Translations under genes and position numbers: made by a program
Origin: Akkermansiaceae bacterium
GTDB taxonomy: Bacteria > Verrucomicrobiota > Verrucomicrobiia > Verrucomicrobiales > Akkermansiaceae
DNA: 32,850 nt
Direction: 5' to 3'
Assembly: GCA_023301545.1 (NCBI GenBank)
Contig: JALZUI010000025.1
Coordinates: 1 to 32,850, forward strand
Shown here: in pieces, positions 10,692-27,468 of the stretch
How the letters are laid out: each line of letters starts with the position of its first letter
How positions within the stretch are numbered: position 1 is the first letter of the stretch
Notes under the pieces: generated by a model
What the model saw: only the letters and a program-made list of their open reading frames with translations
The model's database searches: none
What the model was told of the DNA's origin: nothing

Positions 10692-12368
10692 TTAAAGAGA
10701 AGCTGATTCATCAAAGGAGACCAAGCGTTGGAGAACAATCATGACTCGATCGAGGAAGAACCCAATGATTCCCACTACAAAACAGGCCACGATAATATTG
10801 GCAAAGGATTGAGAAGATCCGTTCTGATATTCGTCCCAAACAAACTTCCCTAAACCATCAGAGGAAGAAAGGGCTTCAGCCGCAATCAATACCATCCAGC
10901 CTACTCCTAAAGAGATTCGCAATCCTGCAAACACAAGAGGAAGAGAAGAAGGGATAATGATTTTAAAGAGACGCGACCAGAAACCAAGACGGAGAACCTT
11001 TGCGACATTGAGATGATCTGGGTCGATGGACGAGACACCTAAGGCAGTATTCACCAAGGCAGGCCAGAGGGCACAAACCGCCACCGTACAAGCAGAGAAG
11101 ATCATCGCTGGGTTTGTCTGGAAATAACTTAAGGGGTTCGCTTGGTCATTTAAGAACAGGAAAAGTGGGTGCTTCTCTGGATCAGGGAAGAAGGCTCCAA
11201 TAATGATTTGGAAAATCAGGAGCCAAACCACAGGAGAGACCGGACGGAAGATCGAAATGATTGGGGTTAAACAAGCCATTACAATCCTATTCAATCCACA
11301 CATGATCCCCAGCGGAATTGCAACCAGACAAGCGAGGCTGAAGCCGATAATCACGGTAATAAGCGAACGATACGTTTGCCACACGATAGAAGCGGATCGA
11401 GGGTACTGCTGTCCTTTCGTTTTTTCCGCTTTCTCGGTATTCGACACCAGTGACTTAGCTTGCTTATAGGCTTCGCCTCCGTCTGTGGTAGTATTGAGTT
11501 GAGTCGACGCATCCGCAGCCTTCGCAAGAAGCGTATCCCCTTTCACCTCGCGGTTTCCGGAGGTAAGGTAATCGATTCTTTTTTTGGAGTGTTGGATTTC
11601 ATCAGCCAGCTTATTTGCCGCCAACTGAGCAGCTTTCACTTCTTTGGGAGGATTAGATCGAATGAGATCTATCTTTGTTTTGATTAATTTGAGCTCTTCT
11701 TTTTCGCTCTCACTCTTTATCCCATTTTCTTTAATGAGAGTGACCAGCTGTTGTGGCTCAGCCGTCTTGTTGGCCACCTTTTGAGCTAGAGCTTCCTCAG
11801 CACTTTTTCGCTCTTTTTTCTGTGAAAAGGAGAGTGCTTTCAGTTCGTCATATTCTGCTTTAATAGGCGCGATTTCAGACTCCATCTTCTCTTTCGCTTG
11901 TGCGGCAATCGACTGTGAATCGGCCTCTAATGCGGCATATTCACCTTCTTGCTTCTGTATCAAGGCTTCGATCTTCTCAACCTCTGCACCACGGTCTTCG
12001 CCTGTAGTCATGAAGGCTTGTTCCTTCTCACTTTCCTTTTCATGGAAGCGGTAACTATCCTTCCACGCATCCCATACTCTAGTCGGGGTTGGCACCTCTC
12101 CTGATTTGGTCTTATGATTCGGCCCTAAAACAGTCCAAGCGGCAAGGCAAGCGAAGACAAAGACGATCGGGAGCAGCATATAGCGGCTGATATCTCGAAT
12201 CTGTTTTTGTGGCTCTTCTTTGAAAAGGAGTCGGACGGGAGGATCCAGTACTTTAAAGCCACTGACATCAATGACCTTTAGTATACTATATTTGATTTTA
12301 TCTTTTGTAGGATTAGCCATAGAGCAAAACGTTGTATCTGAAACCCGATACAGCTCACCCCATGCCAA
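10692..12368 (-). CDS. nrtB: Nitrate ABC transporter permease (NrtB-like) with long charged insertion; likely start at 12320
   Basis: C-terminal half is a binding-protein-dependent permease ([29 protein letters not shown]...[15 protein letters not shown]...[18 protein letters not shown]). N-terminal TM then about 220 residues of charged heptad-like sequence. Confidence 0.83.
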
Positions 12369-12388: not shown

Positions 12389-12877
12389 TTAATCGCATGT
12401 CGCAGATGAATAAAATTCATGCTCGCCAAGTGAAAGGGTTCCTCCGCTAGTAATTCGACATCGCAACCCCCCTTTTCCTTTAAGATATTCATGCACGCCA
12501 GGGGCACACGCTTCATCCATCCAATAGCATGGAGCGGCCTCCTCTGATCCGGTAAACTTCAGATTCCCCACAGAAAATTCCTTCCCAATCAACGCATTCA
12601 AATCAAGCCCTTCGGTAATAACGTTTCTGCGAAAGGCCGAACTACATAAATCGGGTAAGGAGAAGTGCTCTTTGACCTCATTGTAAACCTGTAGGTCAAA
12701 GAATGTAATTTGCCCCTTAAAATCTTCCTTAAAGTCATAATACCGATCACCGAGAATTCCTCTTCCAGCGACCAATTCAGCAGACTCCGCAGATTCTATA
12801 TGATAATTGGCCGCGCCTTTTCCATGCCTCCCTTTGTAGCTATGGCCCTTTGATAAATATAATTTTTTTACTATCAT
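12389..12877 (-). CDS. MOSC-domain-like protein
   Basis: AGRGILGDRYYDFK, RRNVITEGLDLNALIGKEFSVGNLKFTGSEEAAPCYWMD, GLRCRITSGGTLSLGE match MOSC-domain features; overlaps the moaA stop and sits in the Moco operon. Confidence 0.78.
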   Translation of the reverse strand: MIVKKLYLSKGHSYKGRHGKGAANYHIESAESAELVAGRGILGDRYYDFKEDFKGQITFFDLQVYNEVKEHFSLPDLCSSAFRRNVITEGLDLNALIGKEFSVGNLKFTGSEEAAPCYWMDEACAPGVHEYLKGKGGLRCRITSGGTLSLGEHEFYSSATCD

Positions 12878-14306: not shown

Positions 14307-15122
14307 TTATCCGCCCATAAAGGGGGGCATGAAAGCGATTATATCATCTGGGCTAAAGACATGGTTCCAACTCGTAAAGGCATTATTCACAGCAGGCTTC
14401 ATCTCAGGTAATTTGGTCGATAGATGATGACGCATACGACATTCTTCCCACAGTCCAGCTAACGTCACCGCCGTCGAAGTCACGTGCTCTGAGGAACAAC
14501 CCGCCTCCTCTCTTAGCTTGGCATAATACTCCACTGTCACTTGCTTTTCTGAGACCTCATTTCCTTGCTGTGCCTTCCATTCGTTAAGGTCTTCAGGGTA
14601 GTTTAGGTTGGTCAATAGATTCATCCTGTCAGGAGCAAGCTCCACCCGCGAAAGATTCTCTAAGAAGGAGCGTAAGCAACGCGAATTGCTTTCAAACACC
14701 TTATCCAGAGCCACTTTGGCAGAGGGTGAATATAAGGAGCAATGACCTTCAGGTACTGCGTCATAAGGATTCAGATAACATACAATATCTTTATTCTGCT
14801 CACGGCTTTCTACTAAGCGTAACAAGTCCTCCTTACCTACATTCGGTAAGTCGCAAGCCAAGACGAGCCAATCACAGTCTGGAGAGTGAGCGAATGCAGT
14901 AGCCATCCCTCCGAGAGGCCCCTGACTAGGCGCTAGATCAGGTAAATCGTATGCATTAGACTTCTCTGCTCCATACGGGAGCGAAACATACACTTCATCG
15001 CACACTTCCGAAAGAAGCCTTAAAGAGCGGTCTTTAAAAGTCTCGCCTTCATGTGTCAGCAATTGCTTAGGCTGCCCCATCCGCTGACTGAGACCACCTG
15101 TAAGTAATAACCCCTTGATCAT
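14307..15122 (-). CDS. MobA-MoaD fusion: Mo-cofactor nucleotidyltransferase plus molybdopterin synthase sulfur carrier
   Basis: N-terminus LLLTGGLSQRMGQPKQLL and LACDLPNV (MobA family); C-terminus VTVEYYAKLREEAG...PDDIIAFMPPFMGG with terminal Gly-Gly (MoaD). Confidence 0.9.
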   Translation of the reverse strand: MIKGLLLTGGLSQRMGQPKQLLTHEGETFKDRSLRLLSEVCDEVYVSLPYGAEKSNAYDLPDLAPSQGPLGGMATAFAHSPDCDWLVLACDLPNVGKEDLLRLVESREQNKDIVCYLNPYDAVPEGHCSLYSPSAKVALDKVFESNSRCLRSFLENLSRVELAPDRMNLLTNLNYPEDLNEWKAQQGNEVSEKQVTVEYYAKLREEAGCSSEHVTSTAVTLAGLWEECRMRHHLSTKLPEMKPAVNNAFTSWNHVFSPDDIIAFMPPFMGG

Positions 15123-16899: not shown

Positions 16900-18249
16900 T
16901 TACTCTGCAGTATCTTTATTCCCTATTGCGTGGGCATTTAGGTAAGCAATTGGCTTCTTCCCATCATAGGTAACTCCATCAATGAAGTCTGAAGTAGGAG
17001 CCTTGTACCCATCATACTCAGGAGCTGGGAAGTCTGAAGCCTCAAGCACTCCTTCCTCAACAAGCATGTCCGCAGCCTTACGGTAGACGTCTGGTAAGTA
17101 AACACTCTTAGCCGTTTCGTGGTACCAAGACGCTGGTTTAGCCTCTGTGATTTGCCCCCAGCGACGCATTTGCGTCAAGAACCAGACTCCATCCGAAAAG
17201 TGTGGATACGTTGCATGGTACTTGAAGAAGACGTTAAAATCAAGCATCTCACGCTTGTCGGTCTGTTGGAAGTAGAAGTGCCCACTCATCGAGTTATTGA
17301 TAATGTCAAAGTCTGCTCCAACGTAGTTAGGTTGTGAGAGAATACGGCACGCTTCAGCTCTGTTTACTAACTTGCCATCTTCGGTCTCATCTAGCCATTT
17401 ACCAGCCTTGATCAGTGCTTTTGTCAGCGCGATGAGGGTATTTGGATTTTCATCAGCCCAGGCCTTTGTGATTCCAAAAACCTTTTCCGGATTATTTTTC
17501 CAGATATCATAGTTCGTGATCACAGGAACTCCGATCCCTTTAGATACTGCTTGTTGGTTCCATGGCTCTCCTACACAATACGCCACATTCTTTCCTGACT
17601 CCAATGTCGAAGGCATTTGAGGTGGAGGAGTAGTCGATAATTCAATATCTCCGTCAGTGAACCCCTTCAGGTCAGTTGAAGTATACATCCCTGGATTAAT
17701 TCCAGCAGCTGCCAGCCAGTATCTCATCTCGTAGTTATGAGTCGAGACCGGGAAGACCATTCCCATCGGAAGCTTTTTGCCGTCTTCTTTAGCCTCATCT
17801 ACAATCGGCTTCAGAGATGCTGCAGAAATTGGATGCGGTGGAGTATCAGACTGAAGTGACTCGTCATTCTCCTGCATTTGCTCCCAAATCGCGTTTGAAA
17901 CCGTAATCCCGTTACCATTCAAGTCTAAGGTATAAGGAGTCACAATGTGAGCTTTGGTACCAAAGCCGATCGTCGCCGCAATTGGCTGACCCGATAGCAT
18001 GTGCGCTCCATCTAACTCGCCATTGATGACGTTATCTAATAATTGCTTCCAGTTTGGTTGCGCAATCACTTTTACCTGAAGACCTTCCTCCTCGAAATAG
18101 CCTTTCTCTTTAGCAATAACAAGAGGAGCGCAGTCTGTTAGCTTAATAAAGCCTAGCTTTAGCTCATCTTTTTCGACTTCTAAGGTTTCTGCCTGTACTA
18201 GGCTAGTTGTGGCAAAAAGCGCCAACGTTGATTTTAATAGTAATTTCAT
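16900..18249 (-). CDS. nrtA: Nitrate ABC transporter periplasmic substrate-binding protein NrtA
   Basis: Signal peptide [59 protein letters not shown]-terminal [22 protein letters not shown] typical of NrtA. Confidence 0.92.
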
Positions 18250-18284: not shown

Positions 18285-19583
18285 TTAGAACTTATAGTCT
18301 AACTGAACAGAAGCCTGTGCGATATCAGCACTGGCTCTGCCAAAGCTACTGTCATTATCGTTGTTGCCAAAGTAGTAGGCAAACTTAGCTAAAACGGTGA
18401 GGTTCTCATTAATAGGCTTAATAAGCACTGCATCCGCTTCCCATCCGTAGGTTTCACTAAAGTCTTCATCCATGAAGTAGTGTAATGCACCTACCGCTTT
18501 GATTCCACCAGGGAGACCTGCTTTCACTGCAGATACATAGAAGTCTGCGATTCCATCCCAATCTACTAAACCTAATTGACTACCTAAGAAGGCATCAGCA
18601 AACCCATTGAATTTGTGGGCGGTTTGTAAAGGAGTTACGAAATCTGCCCCTTGAAAGACCAATCCCGCAGACCCTGCGATCCCGGCAACCTTCTGGGAGT
18701 ATTTAACGTGTCCATAATAGTCGGTGTAGCTATCTTTATCCCCGGCTTCAGTCTGCACCGCTCCTTCTAAGTAAAGAGATCCAGCCCCCGCTTTAAGAGT
18801 CGCGAAAGAACCATAGGTATTAGAACTAGCGAAGTCCCCTTGGTCTGAGAAATCGAACAGGTAAGCATAAGCACCTAGTTTATGTGAACCTAAATTGAAT
18901 TTGGCATTAATCAGATGCGCATCTCCTTCTAATTCACCTAGCTGACCGTTAGCATCACTACCAAAAATTCGATTAACCTGTGAAACGTAACCGTAGTAGA
19001 GATCTACAACGTCGTTTTTGTATCCAACGGTGACCCCATCATAGGTTTGTTCGTTATTACGCCATGCCACTCCACCTACGAATTGCTGGTCGTCTAAGTT
19101 AATGCGTTGGCGTCCGACCTTAGCGCTAAATCCGTAACCTTCATACGCAAGGTAAGCTTGGTTAAGCTCTTCCGTCTCCGGATCAGCAATGACTGTATGA
19201 CCCGGTTCGAATGGGTCAGCAACTGCAGTGCGAGTAGGAGTACTGCGGAAATCATCTACTAAGGCGTAGGAAAACTCCCCTTCTGCAAAAAGACTGAACC
19301 CACCGTACTTTTTCGTCTTCAACCCGGGTCTTAATCTGGTTGTTAAGGCATTAGAAGATTGAAGACCTTGCTGATCACGAAACTCGTAACGGAGCCTTGC
19401 GTCCAACGTAGGGCGTACCGCCCAGTCATTCACGCCATCAAGGAAATTGACCCCTTGTATAGCCGCTTGTGGGAATGGTAAAATAGATAGACTTGATTCA
19501 TCAGTAGGGATGAAACTTTCGCCGGCATGTGAACTTGCTGTAAATGCCGCGACCGCAGATAGAGTAATGATTTTATGTTGCAT
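18285..19583 (-). CDS. Outer-membrane porin-like protein (alginate-export-type beta-barrel) heading the nitrate operon
   Basis: Signal peptide, beta-barrel repeats, RLRYEFRDQQGLQSSNALTTRLRPGLKT, GRQRINLDDQQFVGGVAWRNNEQTYDGV; C-terminal VQLDYKF. Confidence 0.8.
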   Translation of the reverse strand: MQHKIITLSAVAAFTASSHAGESFIPTDESSLSILPFPQAAIQGVNFLDGVNDWAVRPTLDARLRYEFRDQQGLQSSNALTTRLRPGLKTKKYGGFSLFAEGEFSYALVDDFRSTPTRTAVADPFEPGHTVIADPETEELNQAYLAYEGYGFSAKVGRQRINLDDQQFVGGVAWRNNEQTYDGVTVGYKNDVVDLYYGYVSQVNRIFGSDANGQLGELEGDAHLINAKFNLGSHKLGAYAYLFDFSDQGDFASSNTYGSFATLKAGAGSLYLEGAVQTEAGDKDSYTDYYGHVKYSQKVAGIAGSAGLVFQGADFVTPLQTAHKFNGFADAFLGSQLGLVDWDGIADFYVSAVKAGLPGGIKAVGALHYFMDEDFSETYGWEADAVLIKPINENLTVLAKFAYYFGNNDNDSSFGRASADIAQASVQLDYKF

Positions 19584-19638
19584 GACGTATCATCCTACAG
19601 CTTAAGGCGTGCCAATCTGGAATCTCTAATAAAATTAA

Positions 19639-19659
19639 AATTCATCAAAAACATGAATT
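19639..19659. promoter_or_regulatory. Imperfectly placed inverted repeat AATTCAT-N7-ATGAATT in the nitrate divergent promoter
   Basis: Direct reading: 7-bp arms with a 7-nt spacer, within the 19584-19905 intergenic region. Confidence 0.3.
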
Positions 19660-19842
19660 AAATTTATTTAAACCATTCAAAGCCTAGTGAGATATGAGCG
19701 AAATCTCTTAATACGGCTACTCATTCAAATAGAGAGCCCCTTTCGAAAACCTCTTCCCTATAAGACCTAGATTTACTTAGGTGACTGAAATTGCGCTCAA
19801 GTCAACTCCTTGAGATTTCACCACCCCTTAACTATCACATCT

Positions 19843-19867
19843 AGTGCATGAAAAACATTCATGCACT
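19843..19867. promoter_or_regulatory. Perfect 10-bp inverted repeat AGTGCATGAA-N5-TTCATGCACT upstream of nirA
   Basis: Direct reading; lies between the divergent porin/nrt operon and nirA, 38 nt before the probable nirA ATG at 19906. Confidence 0.55.
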
Positions 19868-19905
19868 CCGTCAGCCCTTGGCATTCGTCATGCTATTTTG
19901 TATGT

Positions 19906-21630
19906 ATGGAAGATAGTTTCAACGACACACAGAAAGGTTACCTTCAAGGCTTACTTGATGGAATAAACTCTCCTGGTTTTCTGGGTAAAACGGAGGATGG
20001 GAAATTCACTGGCGACGCCGCTGCTGCAGGCCCAGAGACCGTCTACGGAACAGAGATCGAAGACCTTTGTAAGGAAGAGACCATCAAACATGAATTAAAT
20101 GGCCTAGATTGTTGGGATAGCATGCTACAAGCAGATGCTGACAAGGAATTTGCTAAAGGCGGCGATGTCTTCCGCTTCAAGTTTTATGGAATGTTTCATG
20201 TGAGCCCTGCACAGGATTCTTACATGTGCCGGATGCGCATTGCGGGCGGAGAACTAAATACGCTCCAATTAAGAGGGATTGCAGAAATGGCAGATGATTG
20301 GGGTGGTGGATATTGTGATGTCACTACGCGTAACAACTTCCAGATTCGCGAAATTATGCCTGGAAACGTCACGAATGTCTTCCAAAAGCTCACGGATATA
20401 GGCCTCACGTCGAAGGGAGCGGGGGCAGACAACATTCGTAATATCACAGCCACTCCGACCACTGGGTTCGATACTCACGAATTTATTGATGTCATGCCTT
20501 ACGCTCGTAGTATGCATCATCATATATTGAACAACCGGGACCTCTTCGGCTTACCTCGTAAGTTCAATATCTCCTTTGACTCCGGTGGCGCTGTCTCAGT
20601 TTGCACAGATACGAATGATATTGGTTTCTATGCATGTAAGGTTGGAGAAAATTTTGATGGCATTGAACCTGGCGTATATTTCCGCGTTCAACTCTGTGGT
20701 ATCACAGGGCATAAGCAGTTTGCGAGTGATTGCGGCGTCTTATTGAAGCCTTCGGAGATGATTCCGTTTGCGGCCGCCTTGATTCGAGTTTTCGTCGAAA
20801 ACGGTGACCGCACAAGCCGTAAGAAAGCCCGCCTTAAGTATTTAGTCGATAAGTGGGGTGTCGAAAAGATGCTTACTGAAACAGAGAAAAAGCTAAATAC
20901 ACCCCTCTTTTACTACCCTGTAGAAAGCTGTATCATCTCTCAGCCTAAGGTGAAACACGGACACATTGGAGTGCATAAGCAGAGCGATGGCGACAATTAC
21001 GTCGGGATTGTAGTGCCAGTCGGTAGAATAGTCACGAAAGACATGCACACGCTCTCCGATCTCGTGGACAAATATGCCAAGGGGAAAGTCCGCCTCACGG
21101 TTTGGCAAAACTTGATTGTTCCTCATGTTTCAGACGCACAACTTGCGCCCTTCTTAGCCGAACTTAAAAAGGCTGGATTTCAATACGAACAAACTGCTGT
21201 TTCTGGTGGCTTAATCGCTTGTACCGGAAGCACAGGTTGTAAGTTCGCGCAATCAAACACGAAGGGGCAAGCGATAGAATTAGGCCGTATTCTAGATAGA
21301 AAAATTTCCTTAGACCAACCAGTCAATATTCACCTCACAGGATGCCCTCACTCTTGTGCTCAGCACTACATCGGAGACATTGGGATGCAAGGGGTAAAAG
21401 TAAAAAATGAAGCGGGAGAATCAACCGACGGGTACAATATTGTCTTAGGTGGCGGAACAGATGACGACCAGTTCATGGCTCAAGAAGTATTTAAGCAAAT
21501 CCCGTTTACAGATGTTCCCCCCTTAGTCGAAAGACTCTTAAACGCATACAAAGAGAACAGAGATGCGGAGGAAAGCTTTGCCCACTTTACCCGTAGACAT
21601 ACTCCGGAACAACTAAAGGACATGGTTTAA
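19906..21630 (+). CDS. nirA: Ferredoxin-type nitrite reductase NirA (track start 19861 likely too early)
   Basis: Nitrite/sulfite reductase siroheme-4Fe4S signature TGSTGCKFAQSNTKG...LTGCPHSCAQHYIGDIGMQG; TTRNNFQIREI repeat domain; MEDSFNDTQKGYL start at 19906. Confidence 0.9.
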   Translation: MEDSFNDTQKGYLQGLLDGINSPGFLGKTEDGKFTGDAAAAGPETVYGTEIEDLCKEETIKHELNGLDCWDSMLQADADKEFAKGGDVFRFKFYGMFHVSPAQDSYMCRMRIAGGELNTLQLRGIAEMADDWGGGYCDVTTRNNFQIREIMPGNVTNVFQKLTDIGLTSKGAGADNIRNITATPTTGFDTHEFIDVMPYARSMHHHILNNRDLFGLPRKFNISFDSGGAVSVCTDTNDIGFYACKVGENFDGIEPGVYFRVQLCGITGHKQFASDCGVLLKPSEMIPFAAALIRVFVENGDRTSRKKARLKYLVDKWGVEKMLTETEKKLNTPLFYYPVESCIISQPKVKHGHIGVHKQSDGDNYVGIVVPVGRIVTKDMHTLSDLVDKYAKGKVRLTVWQNLIVPHVSDAQLAPFLAELKKAGFQYEQTAVSGGLIACTGSTGCKFAQSNTKGQAIELGRILDRKISLDQPVNIHLTGCPHSCAQHYIGDIGMQGVKVKNEAGESTDGYNIVLGGGTDDDQFMAQEVFKQIPFTDVPPLVERLLNAYKENRDAEESFAHFTRRHTPEQLKDMV

Positions 21631-21670: not shown

Positions 21671-23173
21671 ATGCAAACAGAAACTCTAATCGACAGTTTA
21701 ATCAAAGATCAGAAGACTCTCTACAGCGCGGTGGACGAGATTGCAGACAAGATAGACTCAGGAACCCTGAGGACTGATCTCTATCAACACCTCATCCCCT
21801 TAGAAAAGCCTCTGAAGGGAGAGCAATATGCCTTCCAAGTAGAATTGGACAAATGCACATCTTGTAAGGCCTGTGTTGTTGCGTGTCACAGTCTGAATGG
21901 ACTAGAGGAAAAAGAAGCGTGGAGAGATGTCGGGTTAATCCTCGGAGGAGACGATGATCCAGGATGGCAACAAACAGTCACGAGCGCATGCCACCATTGT
22001 TTAGACCCTCAATGCATGCACGGATGCCCTGTAAAAGCCTATGAAAAGGATGAAACCACGGGCATTGTCCGACACTTAGATGATCAATGTATTGGTTGTG
22101 AATACTGCTCCCTAAAGTGCCCTTATGACGTCCCTAAATACTCTTCTCGATTAGGTATTGTAAGGAAGTGTGACATGTGTTCTCAGCGATTAGAAGTAGG
22201 AGAAGCTCCAGCATGCGTGCAAGCCTGCCCTAATGAAGCGATCAAAATAATCACCGTCAACACGTCTGAAATTCGTCCCGAATTAGAAAACAAGCGCGAG
22301 TTTATTAAAGGAGCACCCCTCCCTAACATTACTCTCCCCACTACTCAATACATCGGCAGAAAGGTTCCTGATACCGCAAAGCCTGTAGACCAAGAAAAAC
22401 TTTCCCTCGCCCCTGCGCACCTTCCGCTCGTCTTTATGCTGATGCTAACTCAAGCAGGGGGAGGAACCTTGCTCGCAGCGACTTTGACAAATCCTATTAC
22501 GCTAGGATTAATCGGAAGTTCCTTATTCTTTATCGGGCTCAGCTGCAGTATTTTACACTTAGGCCGTCCCTTAGGCGCTTGGAGATTTTTCCTCGGACTC
22601 AAGACCTCTTGGTTAAGTAGAGAGATTCTTGCCTTTTCACTCTTTGCTCCACTCGTGATGATCTTTGTGGGCATGCACCTCCTCCCTGACCAGTGGACGG
22701 CATTCATCCCCTCGGCAGTGGATTTCCCTCTCAGCGTAAGCCTCTGGGTCATTGGGCTGGCAGCGGTCTACACTAGCGTGATGATCTACCATGATACAAA
22801 ACGCGAAAACTGGCACTACAGATGGACCACCCCAGCCTTCTTTGGCACCGTATTCGCCTTTATCGGAATGGCTCTTGGTTCGTCCTTCCTGCTACTCTGT
22901 CTCATCCCATTGATCACAGACCTCCTCACTCTCCTTCCCGTGATGAGGAGTAAGAAATCATCTCCGTGGTCGCCGTCCTTACATCGAGCACGCCTCCTCT
23001 GGCACCCTCTCCGTAAAGTCACCCTATCCAGACTACTCTTAGGTCTAGGGGCGCCTCTTGTTGCCCTCTTATCTCCACCTCTCGCATTATGTCTTCTCAT
23101 TGGAGGAGAATTACTCTCACGCGCATTATACTTTAGGTCCGTTCACTCCCCTAAAATGACTGGAAATATTTAA
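21671..23173 (+). CDS. Fused DmsB-like 4x[4Fe-4S] ferredoxin and DmsC-like membrane anchor
   Basis: Cys clusters CTSCKACVVAC, CHHCLDPQCMHGCP, CIGCEYCSLKCP, CDMCSQRLEVGEAPACVQACP, followed by a multi-TM DmsC-like region (CSILHLGRPLGAWRFFLGLKTSWLSREILAF). Confidence 0.9.
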   Translation: MQTETLIDSLIKDQKTLYSAVDEIADKIDSGTLRTDLYQHLIPLEKPLKGEQYAFQVELDKCTSCKACVVACHSLNGLEEKEAWRDVGLILGGDDDPGWQQTVTSACHHCLDPQCMHGCPVKAYEKDETTGIVRHLDDQCIGCEYCSLKCPYDVPKYSSRLGIVRKCDMCSQRLEVGEAPACVQACPNEAIKIITVNTSEIRPELENKREFIKGAPLPNITLPTTQYIGRKVPDTAKPVDQEKLSLAPAHLPLVFMLMLTQAGGGTLLAATLTNPITLGLIGSSLFFIGLSCSILHLGRPLGAWRFFLGLKTSWLSREILAFSLFAPLVMIFVGMHLLPDQWTAFIPSAVDFPLSVSLWVIGLAAVYTSVMIYHDTKRENWHYRWTTPAFFGTVFAFIGMALGSSFLLLCLIPLITDLLTLLPVMRSKKSSPWSPSLHRARLLWHPLRKVTLSRLLLGLGAPLVALLSPPLALCLLIGGELLSRALYFRSVHSPKMTGNI

Positions 23174-23184
23174 CTCCCTCCCCT

Positions 23185-25398
23185 ATGAGCCATCTCCCAA
23201 GAATCCCTAGCCTAAAAGACCCTCTAGCATTGGCCAAAGAAGAGGCCACTCTCTTCAAAAAAACAGGCCCTCTGACTGCAGAACTGGCACAACAAAGCGG
23301 TAGCTTAGGCAATCTCCCGGCCGCCCAAGGAGTGACCCAATCTACCACTCAATCGATCTGTGGTTTCTGTTCTACAGGATGTTCTCTTACCATGCATTTG
23401 GGAGAAGATGGGGCGCAAAACCTGACCCCAACCCCCCATTATCCTGTAAACTTAGGAATGGCCTGCCCTAAGGGATGGGAGGCGCTTGCCGTATTGGATG
23501 CTCCAAACCGAGCCAAAACCCCCCTTCTCCATGGAAAACCTATCGACTGGGCGACCGCCGCAGATACCTTTTGTGATCGGATCAAAGAAATCCAAAAGAA
23601 CCATGGGGATCATTCGGTCGCATTCCTTTCGACAGGGCAGATTCCATTCGAAGAAATGGCCTTCATCGGGAGCTTCTTTAAGTCCGGCATGGGAGGACTC
23701 CATTGTGACGGTAATACCAGACAATGTATGGCCACGTCAGTCGTAGCTTATAAACAATCATTTGGGTTTGATGCCCCTCCCTATACCTATGCAGACTTTG
23801 AGGAATCCGAACACCTTGTCTTCATTGGCGCAAACCCATGTATAGCCCACCCTATCATGTGGCAGCGGGTCTTACGGAATAAAAACTCCCCTCGTATATC
23901 CGTGATCGACCCACGTAATACGGAGACCGCACAGTGCGCTACTCACCATTACCCTCTGAAGCCTAAGTCAGACCAAGCCTTGTTTTATGGCATCGCTCAC
24001 TACCTCTTCACTAACAACTTATGCGATAATGAGTTTCTAAATAAGCATACCGAAAGGTGGGAAGAATACCGAACCTTTGTTTCAACATACGACTTGGAAA
24101 CAACTTCCGAGCTCTCAGGAATCTCTCCCGAGGACATCATCGATTTGGCAACTGCGATCGCTCAGAAAAAAACCTCTCTCTGGTGGACGATGGGCGTTAA
24201 TCAGTCCCACCAAGGAGTCCGCACTGCTCAAGCAATTATTAACCTCTCCTTGATGACTGGAAACATCGGAAAACCTGGAACAGGCGCAAACTCTATCACC
24301 GGTCAGTGTAATGCCATGGGGTCGAGACTCTTCTCCAATACAACCAATTTATTAGGTGGCCACGACTTCTCAAAGGGAGAACACCGAGAGAAAATTTCTC
24401 AGCACACAGGCATCCCTGCTGACCGCATTCCAACAGAATTAGGAAAGCCCTATCATGAAATCATCGAAGGTATTCTAAACGGTGAAATTAAAGCCCTCTG
24501 GGTCATCGCAACAAACCCCGCGCACAGCTGGATCAATCAAAACTGCTTTAAAGAAGTCAGGGAAAAGCTCGAGTTTTTGGTCGTCCAAGACATGTACGAG
24601 GATACCGAAACAGCCCAAGTCGCCGACTTAATTCTTCCCGCAGCTGGTTGGGGAGAAAAAACGGGGTGCTTCATTAACTCCGAACGTAGAATTTCAACTA
24701 TCCGCCCCGTAAAAACCGCGCCAGGGGTTGCGCTTGCTGACTTTAAAATCATTCAGCTCCTGAGCCATGCTTGGGGATGCGCAGACCTTTTTGCGAAATG
24801 GACTTCACCTGAAGCCGTCTTTCACATGCTCAGAGATTGCACCAAAGACACGCCCTGTGACATCACGGGGATTACTGGATACCAACACCTTGAAGATCAA
24901 GCCGGTATTCAATGGCCTTATCCAGAAGGCTCCACTAACGAAGAGCCAGAAAAAAGGCTCTTTACTGATTTCAAGTTTTTCACCCCTTCCCAAAAAGCGA
25001 TTTTTCATTTCTCGCCCCCGACGGAAGTAAAAGAGCTCCCTTGCTCGGAATTCCCATTCTACCTTAATACAGGAAGAGGCTCATCTAGCCAGTGGCATAC
25101 CCAAACCCGCACCCGTTCATCCAAGATCCTACAACAACTCTCCCCCTCTGATCCCTATATCGAAATAAACCCCCTCGATGCCAAAGAGCTAGAGATCGCT
25201 CATTTCCAGTGGGTCACCGTTTCCAGTAAAAGAGGCAAGATTAGAGTCCGTGCTTACCTTGCGCCATCCGTATCGCCAGGCCACCTCTTTCTACCAATGC
25301 ACGACCGTCTATCGAACCAGCTAACTCCTGCCGATTTCGATCCATTTTCGTTTCAACCCAGCTACAAAACAGGTGCGGTAGCCCTCAGTAAGGGGTGA
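23185..25398 (+). CDS. nasA: Assimilatory nitrate reductase catalytic subunit (NasA/NarB family molybdopterin oxidoreductase)
   Basis: CGFCSTGCSLTMHLGEDG...MACPKGWEAL 4Fe-4S motif, CMATSVVAYKQSFGFDAPP, VNQSHQGVRTAQAIINLSLMTGNIGKPGTGANSITGQCNAMGSR; context with nirA and nrt. Confidence 0.92.
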   Translation: MSHLPRIPSLKDPLALAKEEATLFKKTGPLTAELAQQSGSLGNLPAAQGVTQSTTQSICGFCSTGCSLTMHLGEDGAQNLTPTPHYPVNLGMACPKGWEALAVLDAPNRAKTPLLHGKPIDWATAADTFCDRIKEIQKNHGDHSVAFLSTGQIPFEEMAFIGSFFKSGMGGLHCDGNTRQCMATSVVAYKQSFGFDAPPYTYADFEESEHLVFIGANPCIAHPIMWQRVLRNKNSPRISVIDPRNTETAQCATHHYPLKPKSDQALFYGIAHYLFTNNLCDNEFLNKHTERWEEYRTFVSTYDLETTSELSGISPEDIIDLATAIAQKKTSLWWTMGVNQSHQGVRTAQAIINLSLMTGNIGKPGTGANSITGQCNAMGSRLFSNTTNLLGGHDFSKGEHREKISQHTGIPADRIPTELGKPYHEIIEGILNGEIKALWVIATNPAHSWINQNCFKEVREKLEFLVVQDMYEDTETAQVADLILPAAGWGEKTGCFINSERRISTIRPVKTAPGVALADFKIIQLLSHAWGCADLFAKWTSPEAVFHMLRDCTKDTPCDITGITGYQHLEDQAGIQWPYPEGSTNEEPEKRLFTDFKFFTPSQKAIFHFSPPTEVKELPCSEFPFYLNTGRGSSSQWHTQTRTRSSKILQQLSPSDPYIEINPLDAKELEIAHFQWVTVSSKRGKIRVRAYLAPSVSPGHLFLPMHDRLSNQLTPADFDPFSFQPSYKTGAVALSKG

Positions 25399-25465: not shown

Positions 25466-26467
25466 TTATTTGAATAATAAATCAGGGTTCATGATTTGCC
25501 CTGTATCTATGATTTTCTTTCTGAACAGTCCGGCTTCTTTTAATCCCTGGAGCACCCATTTTTCTTTTTCTGCGCTCGGATTATTTATATCTTCTCCAGA
25601 AAACTTATGCAAAGGGTGCAACTTCCCGCAGGAGTTGGCATATCGCTTAGTGAGGCATTCTTTAATGTCATCCGGGGACGCCTTGAGTGCTGGTCTCTGA
25701 GATAAGATTTCTGCTAGTGTATCGATGTTTTCGGGAGCATTACAGAAAGCGCAGGCTTTCTGTATGGCATTCCCCATTGCCACTACGTTTCCTTCTTGGT
25801 GTTGGAGAGTTCTCTGAGGTACACTCAGTACTTTTTCTGGGTGACTGGCGCTACAATCATAGGATGTTGCCACGATGTGTCCAGCACCCGTCTTTTCTGA
25901 AAGTGAACCCCATGGCTCTCCCGTACAAAACCCGTCGATCATGCCTTGGGCTAGTAAATCAGGAGCTAATTGAGGGGGGATGAAGACGAGCTCGATTTCT
26001 GCGATATGGTTCTTCAGGTATTTATTCAGCCATTGGAAGAGGAGAATAAGATGCGCGGAGTAACGGCTCACCGTCGCAAAGGTCCATTTACGGTTGTATT
26101 TAGCAGCTCTCTCATTGAGAATTCTAGAGACTTCATCATCGTTATTGAGTTGCTCTTTAGAAATCTCTTTAGTCAGAGAGATCACATTACCATTGGCACT
26201 AATAATCAGAGGAATGGACATCTTAGTTTCATAACACCCCACCCCATTATGAAGAGCGTACGGTAACCCTATTAAGGTGGAGGCGGCATCTAGCTCCCCA
26301 TGGATGAGCTTATCTCGCACCGTTGCCCAACCTACTTCCTCACTAAGAGAGACTTCAACGCCAGCTTCTTCAAAATACCCAAGATGTTCTGCAACTAGTA
26401 TAGGAGCGCTATCTATGAGGGGAACATATCCAAGCTTTAAGGCGTTTTGGTTAGTTAGTGCAGGCAT
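25466..26467 (-). CDS. Signal-peptide-less NrtA/NasS-like protein, putative cytosolic nitrate/nitrite sensor
   Basis: MPALTNQNALKLGYVPLIDSAPILVAEHLGYFEEAGVEVSL, DGFCTGEPWGSLSE motifs of the NrtA/CmpA/NasS family; no N-terminal hydrophobic signal. Confidence 0.8.
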   Translation of the reverse strand: MPALTNQNALKLGYVPLIDSAPILVAEHLGYFEEAGVEVSLSEEVGWATVRDKLIHGELDAASTLIGLPYALHNGVGCYETKMSIPLIISANGNVISLTKEISKEQLNNDDEVSRILNERAAKYNRKWTFATVSRYSAHLILLFQWLNKYLKNHIAEIELVFIPPQLAPDLLAQGMIDGFCTGEPWGSLSEKTGAGHIVATSYDCSASHPEKVLSVPQRTLQHQEGNVVAMGNAIQKACAFCNAPENIDTLAEILSQRPALKASPDDIKECLTKRYANSCGKLHPLHKFSGEDINNPSAEKEKWVLQGLKEAGLFRKKIIDTGQIMNPDLLFK

Positions 26468-26488
26468 GGTCAGGAGTTACCCTAATAG

Positions 26489-26529
26489 AGCATGTCATGT
26501 GCCACATTAATATTGGCACATGACATGCT
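26489..26529. promoter_or_regulatory. Perfect 16-bp inverted repeat between divergent NrtA-like gene and lysR
   Basis: AGCATGTCATGTGCCA-cattaatat-TGGCACATGACATGCT read directly from the sequence. Confidence 0.75.
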
Positions 26530-26550
26530 TTAATTTCATTCATACCCATC

Positions 26551-27468
26551 ATGAGCCTTTACCCTAATATGCGACAGGTGCGCGCCTTCGTTTCTGTTGC
26601 TGAGACAAGCAGCTTTACTAAGGCCGCGCAACTGATGAACCTGACCCAATCTGCCATTTCACACTCTATTAAGAGCTTAGAAGAGCAGTTAGGAGTATGT
26701 CTTATCGAGCGTGCAGGAAAACGGCTTTCTATTACTCAAGACGGTAATATCTACCTCGCCCGTTGCCGAAAGGTGATCCACGAGTTGGATGTAGCTCAAC
26801 AAGAACTGACAAACCTCAAACAGTGGAGTCAGGGGCGGATTCGTATTGGCGCCACTCACTCGATGGTGAAATATCTATTACCTGCGATTTTAAGAGAGTT
26901 TCGGGAGTGCTTTCCTCGTTGTGAAGTCGTCGTGGAAACTGGGGATTCCGCCACCCTTATCGAAAAGCTGAATGCGGCCGAAATTGATTACGCATTCGGG
27001 ATGAAAACTAAGCATCCCAGCTGGTGTGAGTATGAACGATTATTTAGTGATGAAATGGGTCTCGTGATCTCCTCCGCCCATCCCTGGGCTAGTGCCACTA
27101 AGATCCCATCTGAAGGGCTTTCGCAGGATGACTTTTTGGTATACGGAAAGTCTAGTGAGACATACCGCTTGATTAGGGAGCAGGTAGAAAGGCTCGGGAT
27201 CAAGCTTCGTGTATCTATGAATTTAGATGATATGGAAGCCATAAAGGAAATGGCTAAAATAGGTTTGGGCGTGGGAATTGTCGCCCCATGGGTAGCCCGG
27301 CGCGAGCTAGAGTCTGGAGAGTTAAAATTCGTCAAATGTGATGGTATTGATATTAAACGCGACTGGGGCGTCTTTTATCATGACATCAAGAAGAAAAACT
27401 TGGCCGAAGCTACCTTCCTCGGCATAAGCCGCCTCGTGTGTGCTGGGGTGAGCACCTTACCGACCTAG
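26551..27468 (+). CDS. LysR family transcriptional regulator
   Basis: N-terminal HTH MRQVRAFVSVAETSSFTKAAQLMNLTQSAISHSIKSLEEQLGVCLIER; LysR substrate domain with IRIGATHSMVKYLLPAILREF. Confidence 0.94.
   Translation: MSLYPNMRQVRAFVSVAETSSFTKAAQLMNLTQSAISHSIKSLEEQLGVCLIERAGKRLSITQDGNIYLARCRKVIHELDVAQQELTNLKQWSQGRIRIGATHSMVKYLLPAILREFRECFPRCEVVVETGDSATLIEKLNAAEIDYAFGMKTKHPSWCEYERLFSDEMGLVISSAHPWASATKIPSEGLSQDDFLVYGKSSETYRLIREQVERLGIKLRVSMNLDDMEAIKEMAKIGLGVGIVAPWVARRELESGELKFVKCDGIDIKRDWGVFYHDIKKKNLAEATFLGISRLVCAGVSTLPT

Follow-up and report, generated by a model that had tools for sequence, protein, structure and literature searches.

The stretch of DNA analysed here (the window, 32,850 nucleotides) is a single contig of a 1.78-Mb draft genome of an Akkermansiaceae bacterium, whose completeness is 88.8%. 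It carries a nitrate assimilation cluster, in which the genes for a porin, NrtA, molybdenum cofactor proteins, NrtB and two ATPases are on the minus strand, and those for NirA, an Fe-S subunit and NasA are on the plus strand (Table 1). A binding protein of the NrtA/NasS type (called the sensor below, for its putative function) and a LysR-type regulator are encoded by divergent genes separated by a gap of 83 bp, and the reading frames are at the coordinates given in the original prediction. The two transporter ATPases, at only 285 and 294 aa, therefore lack a C-terminal regulatory domain, as had been predicted for the NrtC-like one. A 271-aa reading frame at 14307–15122 encodes a MobA-like guanylyltransferase fused to a MoaD/ThiS-like domain (PF12804 and PF02597).

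Table 1. Genes and candidate regulatory elements in the window, in order of position.
Feature	Position	Strand	Evidence or remark
Second transporter ATPase, 285 aa	8929..9786	-	
Transporter ATPase without C-terminal regulatory domain, 294 aa	9787..10671	-	Adjoins nrtB in relatives, conserved
Nitrate transporter permease, NrtB-like	10692..12368	-	
Candidate LysR box ATGAATAAAATTCAT, upstream of permease gene nrtB	12406..12420		12/12; the genome's only exact copy
NrtA, exported nitrate-binding protein, 449 aa	16900..18249	-	PF13379 4.7e-93; 2g29 match 1.7e-55
Outer-membrane porin, alginate-export family	18285..19583	-	
Tentative -24/-12-like element TTGGCACGCCTTAAGCT, upstream of porin gene	19599..19615	-	
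Candidate LysR box ATGAATTAAATTTAT, porin/nirA divergent region	19653..19667		11/12
Candidate LysR box ATGAAAAACATTCAT, nirA start	19848..19862		11/12; within a perfect 10-bp inverted repeat
NirA, ferredoxin-type nitrite reductase	19861..21630	+	NF007126, above cut-off
Fe-S/DmsC-like electron-transfer subunit of nitrate reductase	21671..23173	+	
NasA, assimilatory nitrate reductase	23185..25398	+	NasA/NasC families, matches below cut-off
Cytosolic NrtA/NasS-like binding protein, 333 aa, putative nitrate/nitrite sensor	25466..26467	-	PF13379 NMT1_2 2.6e-55
Inverted repeat AGCATGTCATGTGCCA-N9-TGGCACATGACATGCT, between sensor and LysR genes	26486..26532		Perfect 16-bp arms, 26489–26504/26514–26529
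Degenerate candidate LysR box TTTAATTTCATTCAT, at the window's own LysR gene	26529..26543		10/12 of ATGAATNNNATTCAT
LysR-type regulator, 305 aa, divergent partner of sensor	26551..27468	+	Pfam HTH_1 and LysR_substrate

The match to PF13379 places the 333-aa protein in the NrtA/NasS-type family to which it had been assigned. There is an in-frame stop four codons upstream of its start, the whole open frame being 336 aa, and the binding domain begins at about residue 9. A signal peptide is therefore not possible, in agreement with the original prediction, which had set the protein apart from the exported NrtA at 16900, whose N-terminus does resemble a signal peptide.

The structure of the sensor was modelled with AlphaFold2 in ColabFold (pLDDT 90.8). 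The best Foldseek matches of the model are the CmpC regulatory domain (9uai, a crystal structure with nitrate) and then NrtA (2g29), and the closest PDB match in a sequence search is likewise an NrtC/CmpC regulatory domain. In NrtA, nitrate is contacted by W102, Q155, H196, G240, and K269 (PMC13204499), and the charge of the anion is balanced by K269 and H196, while the bicarbonate site of CmpA is calcium-dependent instead (PMC8786288). The equivalent residues in the sensor are W47, N94, H139, G183, and K212, so that the sole change is a conservative one from Q to N. Nearly all the LysR-paired relatives share these pocket residues. Given this conservation of the contact residues, nitrate or nitrite is likely to be the ligand of the sensor.

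The sensor is present in 32 of 98 relatives (E about 2e-36 or better), all 32 of which also have the partner LysR. In the window genome, the partner is the only LysR protein found in a genome search at E < 1e-10. The LysR gene is divergently adjacent to the sensor gene at 29 of the 30 related loci fetched, and is also so placed in G087, at a locus beyond these 30; in genus g29 (G076, G097) LysR stands beside nrtA at the head of the same cluster. A class-wide survey found the pairing at 28 of 29 loci, and at 18 of the 19 that were new (the exception being L228); among GTDB genomes it was found at 19 of 20 assessable loci of Verrucomicrobiota and Planctomycetota (exception L072). The divergent LysR pairing noted in the original prediction is thus conserved across related genomes. 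In the GTDB survey, proteobacterial relatives mostly occur with NasT, and the cyanobacterial ones are NrtC fusions.

The window LysR has a winged helix-turn-helix and a LysR substrate-binding domain, as found in LysR-type regulators. The LysR–sensor intergenic regions of relatives contain the sequence ATGAAT-N3-ATTCAT, which forms a T-N11-A dyad at the start codon of LysR. It matches at 12/12 positions in many relatives, and is present in a planctomycete too. The T-N11-A dyad characteristic of LysR-type regulators is thus present at the regulator's own promoter, in the window only in degenerate form (10/12), and at the putative targets. Whole loci were scanned for the box, leaving out the LysR promoters and using the reversed pattern as a control. 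Upstream regions of nitrate genes, which make up 7.9% of the sequence, contained 13 of the 19 sites (P = 8.6e-11), and the control gave 0 matches. Of the remaining six sites, three are upstream of a sensor gene or a nirB-like gene, two of these being just upstream of a relocated sensor gene. When no more than one mismatch is allowed, the window genome contains ten sites, of which the window holds three (P = 0.0007). Genomes that have the LysR but not the sensor likewise have the box before their nitrate genes. From this distribution we conclude that the box probably belongs to LysR, and that LysR probably controls nitrate assimilation.

A second element, an inverted repeat, is present between the two genes (Table 1). 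Each half of it fits the GG-N10-GC pattern of sigma-54 promoters, and at the matching position relatives have the dyad AGC-N8-TGCCAA-N10-TTGGCA-N8-GCT. The repeat may be an operator or, tentatively, a pair of divergent -24/-12 (sigma-54-like) elements; in the latter case the leader ahead of the start codon of the sensor gene would be very short. Similar -24/-12-like elements occur near the starts of the porin gene, nirA and nrtA, all 10 genomes tested have rpoN, and the window genome has three strong activators. These are hints of a general nitrogen control that may act beside LysR.

We suggest, with slightly better than even confidence, that the two proteins form a sensor–regulator module, in which the cytosolic sensor sets the activity of LysR by contact and LysR regulates the nitrate pathway. 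LysR would bind to ATGAAT-N3-ATTCAT boxes both at the divergent pair (its own gene and that of the sensor) and at nirA, nrtB and the porin/nrtA operon. In the cytosol, the sensor would close when it binds nitrate or nitrite, and its loaded and empty forms would differ in their effect on LysR through direct protein contact. In the simplest form, by analogy with NasS–NasT, the empty sensor would hold LysR inactive and the loaded sensor would release it. LysR may also respond to a ligand of its own, in which case the sensor would provide a further input. The module is probably best read as following NasS–NasT logic, but with a DNA-binding regulator in the place of the RNA antiterminator.

It is possible, though in our view rather unlikely, that the inducer is sensed by the effector domain of LysR itself, and that the sensor is merely a member of the regulon, for example buffering or channelling nitrate or nitrite. 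The cyanobacterial regulator NtcB may provide a precedent (PMC5424462). LysR orthologs are indeed more widely conserved than the sensor: about 21 of 53 LysR-bearing relatives have no sensor, and in several of these LysR is directly beside nitrate genes. The sensor is therefore not essential for LysR function, and LysR can probably also work alone. In G097 the NasS-like gene looks frameshifted, with two overlapping frames (L150:9275-10496), although LysR is intact and so are the nitrate genes. The LysR box is moreover found upstream of a sensor gene that does not adjoin LysR. Against a purely passive sensor, the sensor almost never occurs without LysR, although its other neighbours vary, and its stand-alone and urea-linked copies keep LysR. 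Orthologs of the partner LysR were also seen in genomes of genus g8 (L191, L192) that have neither the sensor nor NirA.

The original prediction offered a second possibility, namely that the sensor is an NrtC regulatory domain split off as a separate protein, which would gate the nitrate ABC transporter by acting in trans. This would fit the nearest solved structures, which are NrtC/CmpC regulatory domains, the frequent position of the sensor gene just upstream of nrtA, and the local ATPases, which have no such domain. We nevertheless consider it improbable. In the window the sensor gene is 7 kb from nrtA, and across relatives the neighbouring transporter varies (ABC, MFS, none, or the urea transporter urtABCD) while LysR stays with the sensor, so that a split NrtC is not supported. 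In Roseibacillus ishigakijimensis and in G026 the genes after that of the sensor encode an MFS carrier and a PP2C/kinase fusion, with no NrtABC; this order (LysR<>sensor–MFS–PP2C/kinase) parallels the NasS–NasT–MFS–PP2C/kinase order of Pseudomonas, with LysR in the place of NasT. The sensor is also kept in Methylacidiphilum, with no ABC genes in the locus examined, and in G014 (98% complete; L038), where the pair is present and NrtA, NirA and NasA were not found in the genome. In the phylogeny, the 37 verrucomicrobial sensor sequences fall into a single clade (SH-aLRT 100) that is separate from NasS, NrtA and the NrtC domains. NasS itself is not one clade, and none falls within the verrucomicrobial clade; two planctomycete sensors fall elsewhere in the tree, without strong support. 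The proposed comparison with NasS, NrtA and NrtC domains thus gave a separate clade and no grouping with any of the three. A split NrtC domain was rejected on both grounds, its persistence with MFS or with no ABC transporter and its place in the tree.

The PP2C phosphatase–protein kinase fusion is found beside an MFS nitrate-type carrier at L047:6119-7858 and L050:6614-8344. It also occurs in Pseudomonas nas clusters, and is present with or without the sensor.

Could the pairing simply be an accident, the two genes both happening to lie where nitrate operons begin in a single lineage? Most copies do come from one phylum, and gene order around nitrate genes is often conserved, but we regard this as very improbable, because the pairing spans Verrucomicrobiota and Planctomycetota, and second copies and urea-linked copies, which lie away from nitrate genes, keep it too. 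Second sensors are found in G061, G085, and G076 (L188, L189, L190), each with its own divergent LysR and no nitrate genes nearby. In a tree with LysR paralogs, the partner LysR proteins come out as a single clade (support 94), and the sensor and LysR trees have the same clades (r = 0.775, 0 of 2000 permutations), an agreement that is partly shared species history. The second pairs are placed in matching sub-clades by the two trees. On this phylogenetic evidence the pair is inherited as a unit, since the second copies carry their own LysR and both trees place them alike.

The last alternative, that the sensor is a genuine NasS and its NasT is encoded in the 11% of the genome that is missing, draws on a fold and pocket that are the same as in NasS and on the incompleteness of the window genome, but was rejected as extremely improbable, because no credible NasT was found in any of the pair-bearing relatives, several of which are complete, and because proteobacterial NasS adjoins NasT, which the sensors of LysR pairs never do. 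A protein search of the window genome (88.8% complete) also gave no match to NasT, as expected from the original prediction. The region upstream of nirA has 0 terminator-like sites, and an Rfam scan gave no match. On a Sulfitobacter plasmid (L031:1503-4176), LysR, NasT and NasS are co-directional and upstream of nrtA, so that a LysR gene there adjoins a classical NasST pair.

The original prediction is therefore partly supported, well in its first form, a NasS-like sensor working with LysR, and not in its second. Support for the sensor–regulator module comes from sequence comparisons, namely the pairing, the co-inheritance including the second copies, the pocket, the distribution of operators, and the lack of both NasT and a nirA leader terminator.

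A broader proposal, which we hold with rather less than even confidence, is that the two genes make up a portable signalling module, a cytosolic binding protein of the ABC type acting by direct contact as the ligand sensor for a LysR. Most Verrucomicrobiota carriers would use it for nitrate, and an altered pocket would re-target it to urea utilisation and other loci. The pair is flanked by ureG–ureD and urtABCD (ureG–ureD–LysR<>sensor–urtABCD) in an Opitutia MAG (L087) and in the near-closed genome G264, and the histidine that contacts nitrate (NrtA H196) is changed to Q in both sensors; G264 additionally carries a nitrate-type pair with H. The urea-embedded pairs with the H to Q change, at L087:1-8394 and L234:4965-13418, look like a urea-sensing version.

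A LysR protein normally has a ligand domain of its own, and control by a separate binding protein would therefore be unusual; it is testable in cultured relatives. If the sensor–regulator reading is correct, one nitrate-catching fold has been tied to three outputs, namely the NasT antiterminator, the NrtC transporter ATPase, and a LysR DNA-binding regulator.

In the openly licensed literature we found no proposal of a sensor–LysR pair, and no description of nitrate sensing in Verrucomicrobiota or some Planctomycetota. The pair can be recognised in Methylacidiphilum fumariolicum, where the lysR gene Mfum_140011 (‘cbbR’) is followed by Mfum_140012 (‘tauA nitrate-binding protein’) and then by nitrate reductase genes (PMC3404531). 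The two are adjacent by gene numbering, in the same arrangement as at locus L074, and Mfum_140012 rose from 28 to 117 RPKM in N2-fixing cells (PMC3404531). A coupling of the ‘CbbR’ LysR gene to nitrate had already been suggested, as cited through PMC3404531; the genes are annotated as a RuBisCO regulator and a transporter part, and a sensor–regulator role is not proposed there. If our reading is right, methanotrophic Verrucomicrobia have genes whose annotations, ‘CbbR’ and ‘nitrate ABC transporter binding protein’, would need correcting.

The closest known system is NasS–NasT of Paracoccus, Azotobacter and Pseudomonas. NasS, like the window sensor, is a cytosolic NrtA-type protein with no signal peptide (PMC3795266), has the same nitrate-contact residues, and is linked to nitrate assimilation genes. 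It controls the activity of NasT, which is held by empty NasS and released by loaded NasS (PMC3795266). NasT, however, is an ANTAR RNA-binding antiterminator rather than a DNA-binding LysR, the NasS and NasT genes are co-directional rather than divergent, the target operon has a leader terminator of which none was found upstream of the window nirA, and NasS is outside the verrucomicrobial sensor clade. The C-terminal regulatory domain of cyanobacterial NrtC/CmpC is also cytosolic and NrtA-like, and is the best PDB match by both structure and sequence, but it is fused to an ATPase, whereas the window sensor is a stand-alone 333-aa protein, in a separate clade, that is kept without an ABC transporter. 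NrtA differs in being exported with a signal peptide. NtcB resembles the window LysR in family and in the role proposed here, being a LysR regulator of cyanobacterial nitrate assimilation needed for induction by nitrate or nitrite (PMC5424462), but the literature searched describes no cytosolic binding protein that is paired with it. AmiC–AmiR, as cited in PMC3795266, resembles our proposal in that a binding-protein-like sensor holds a regulator inactive, the differences being that the sensor is for amides and its partner is an ANTAR protein.
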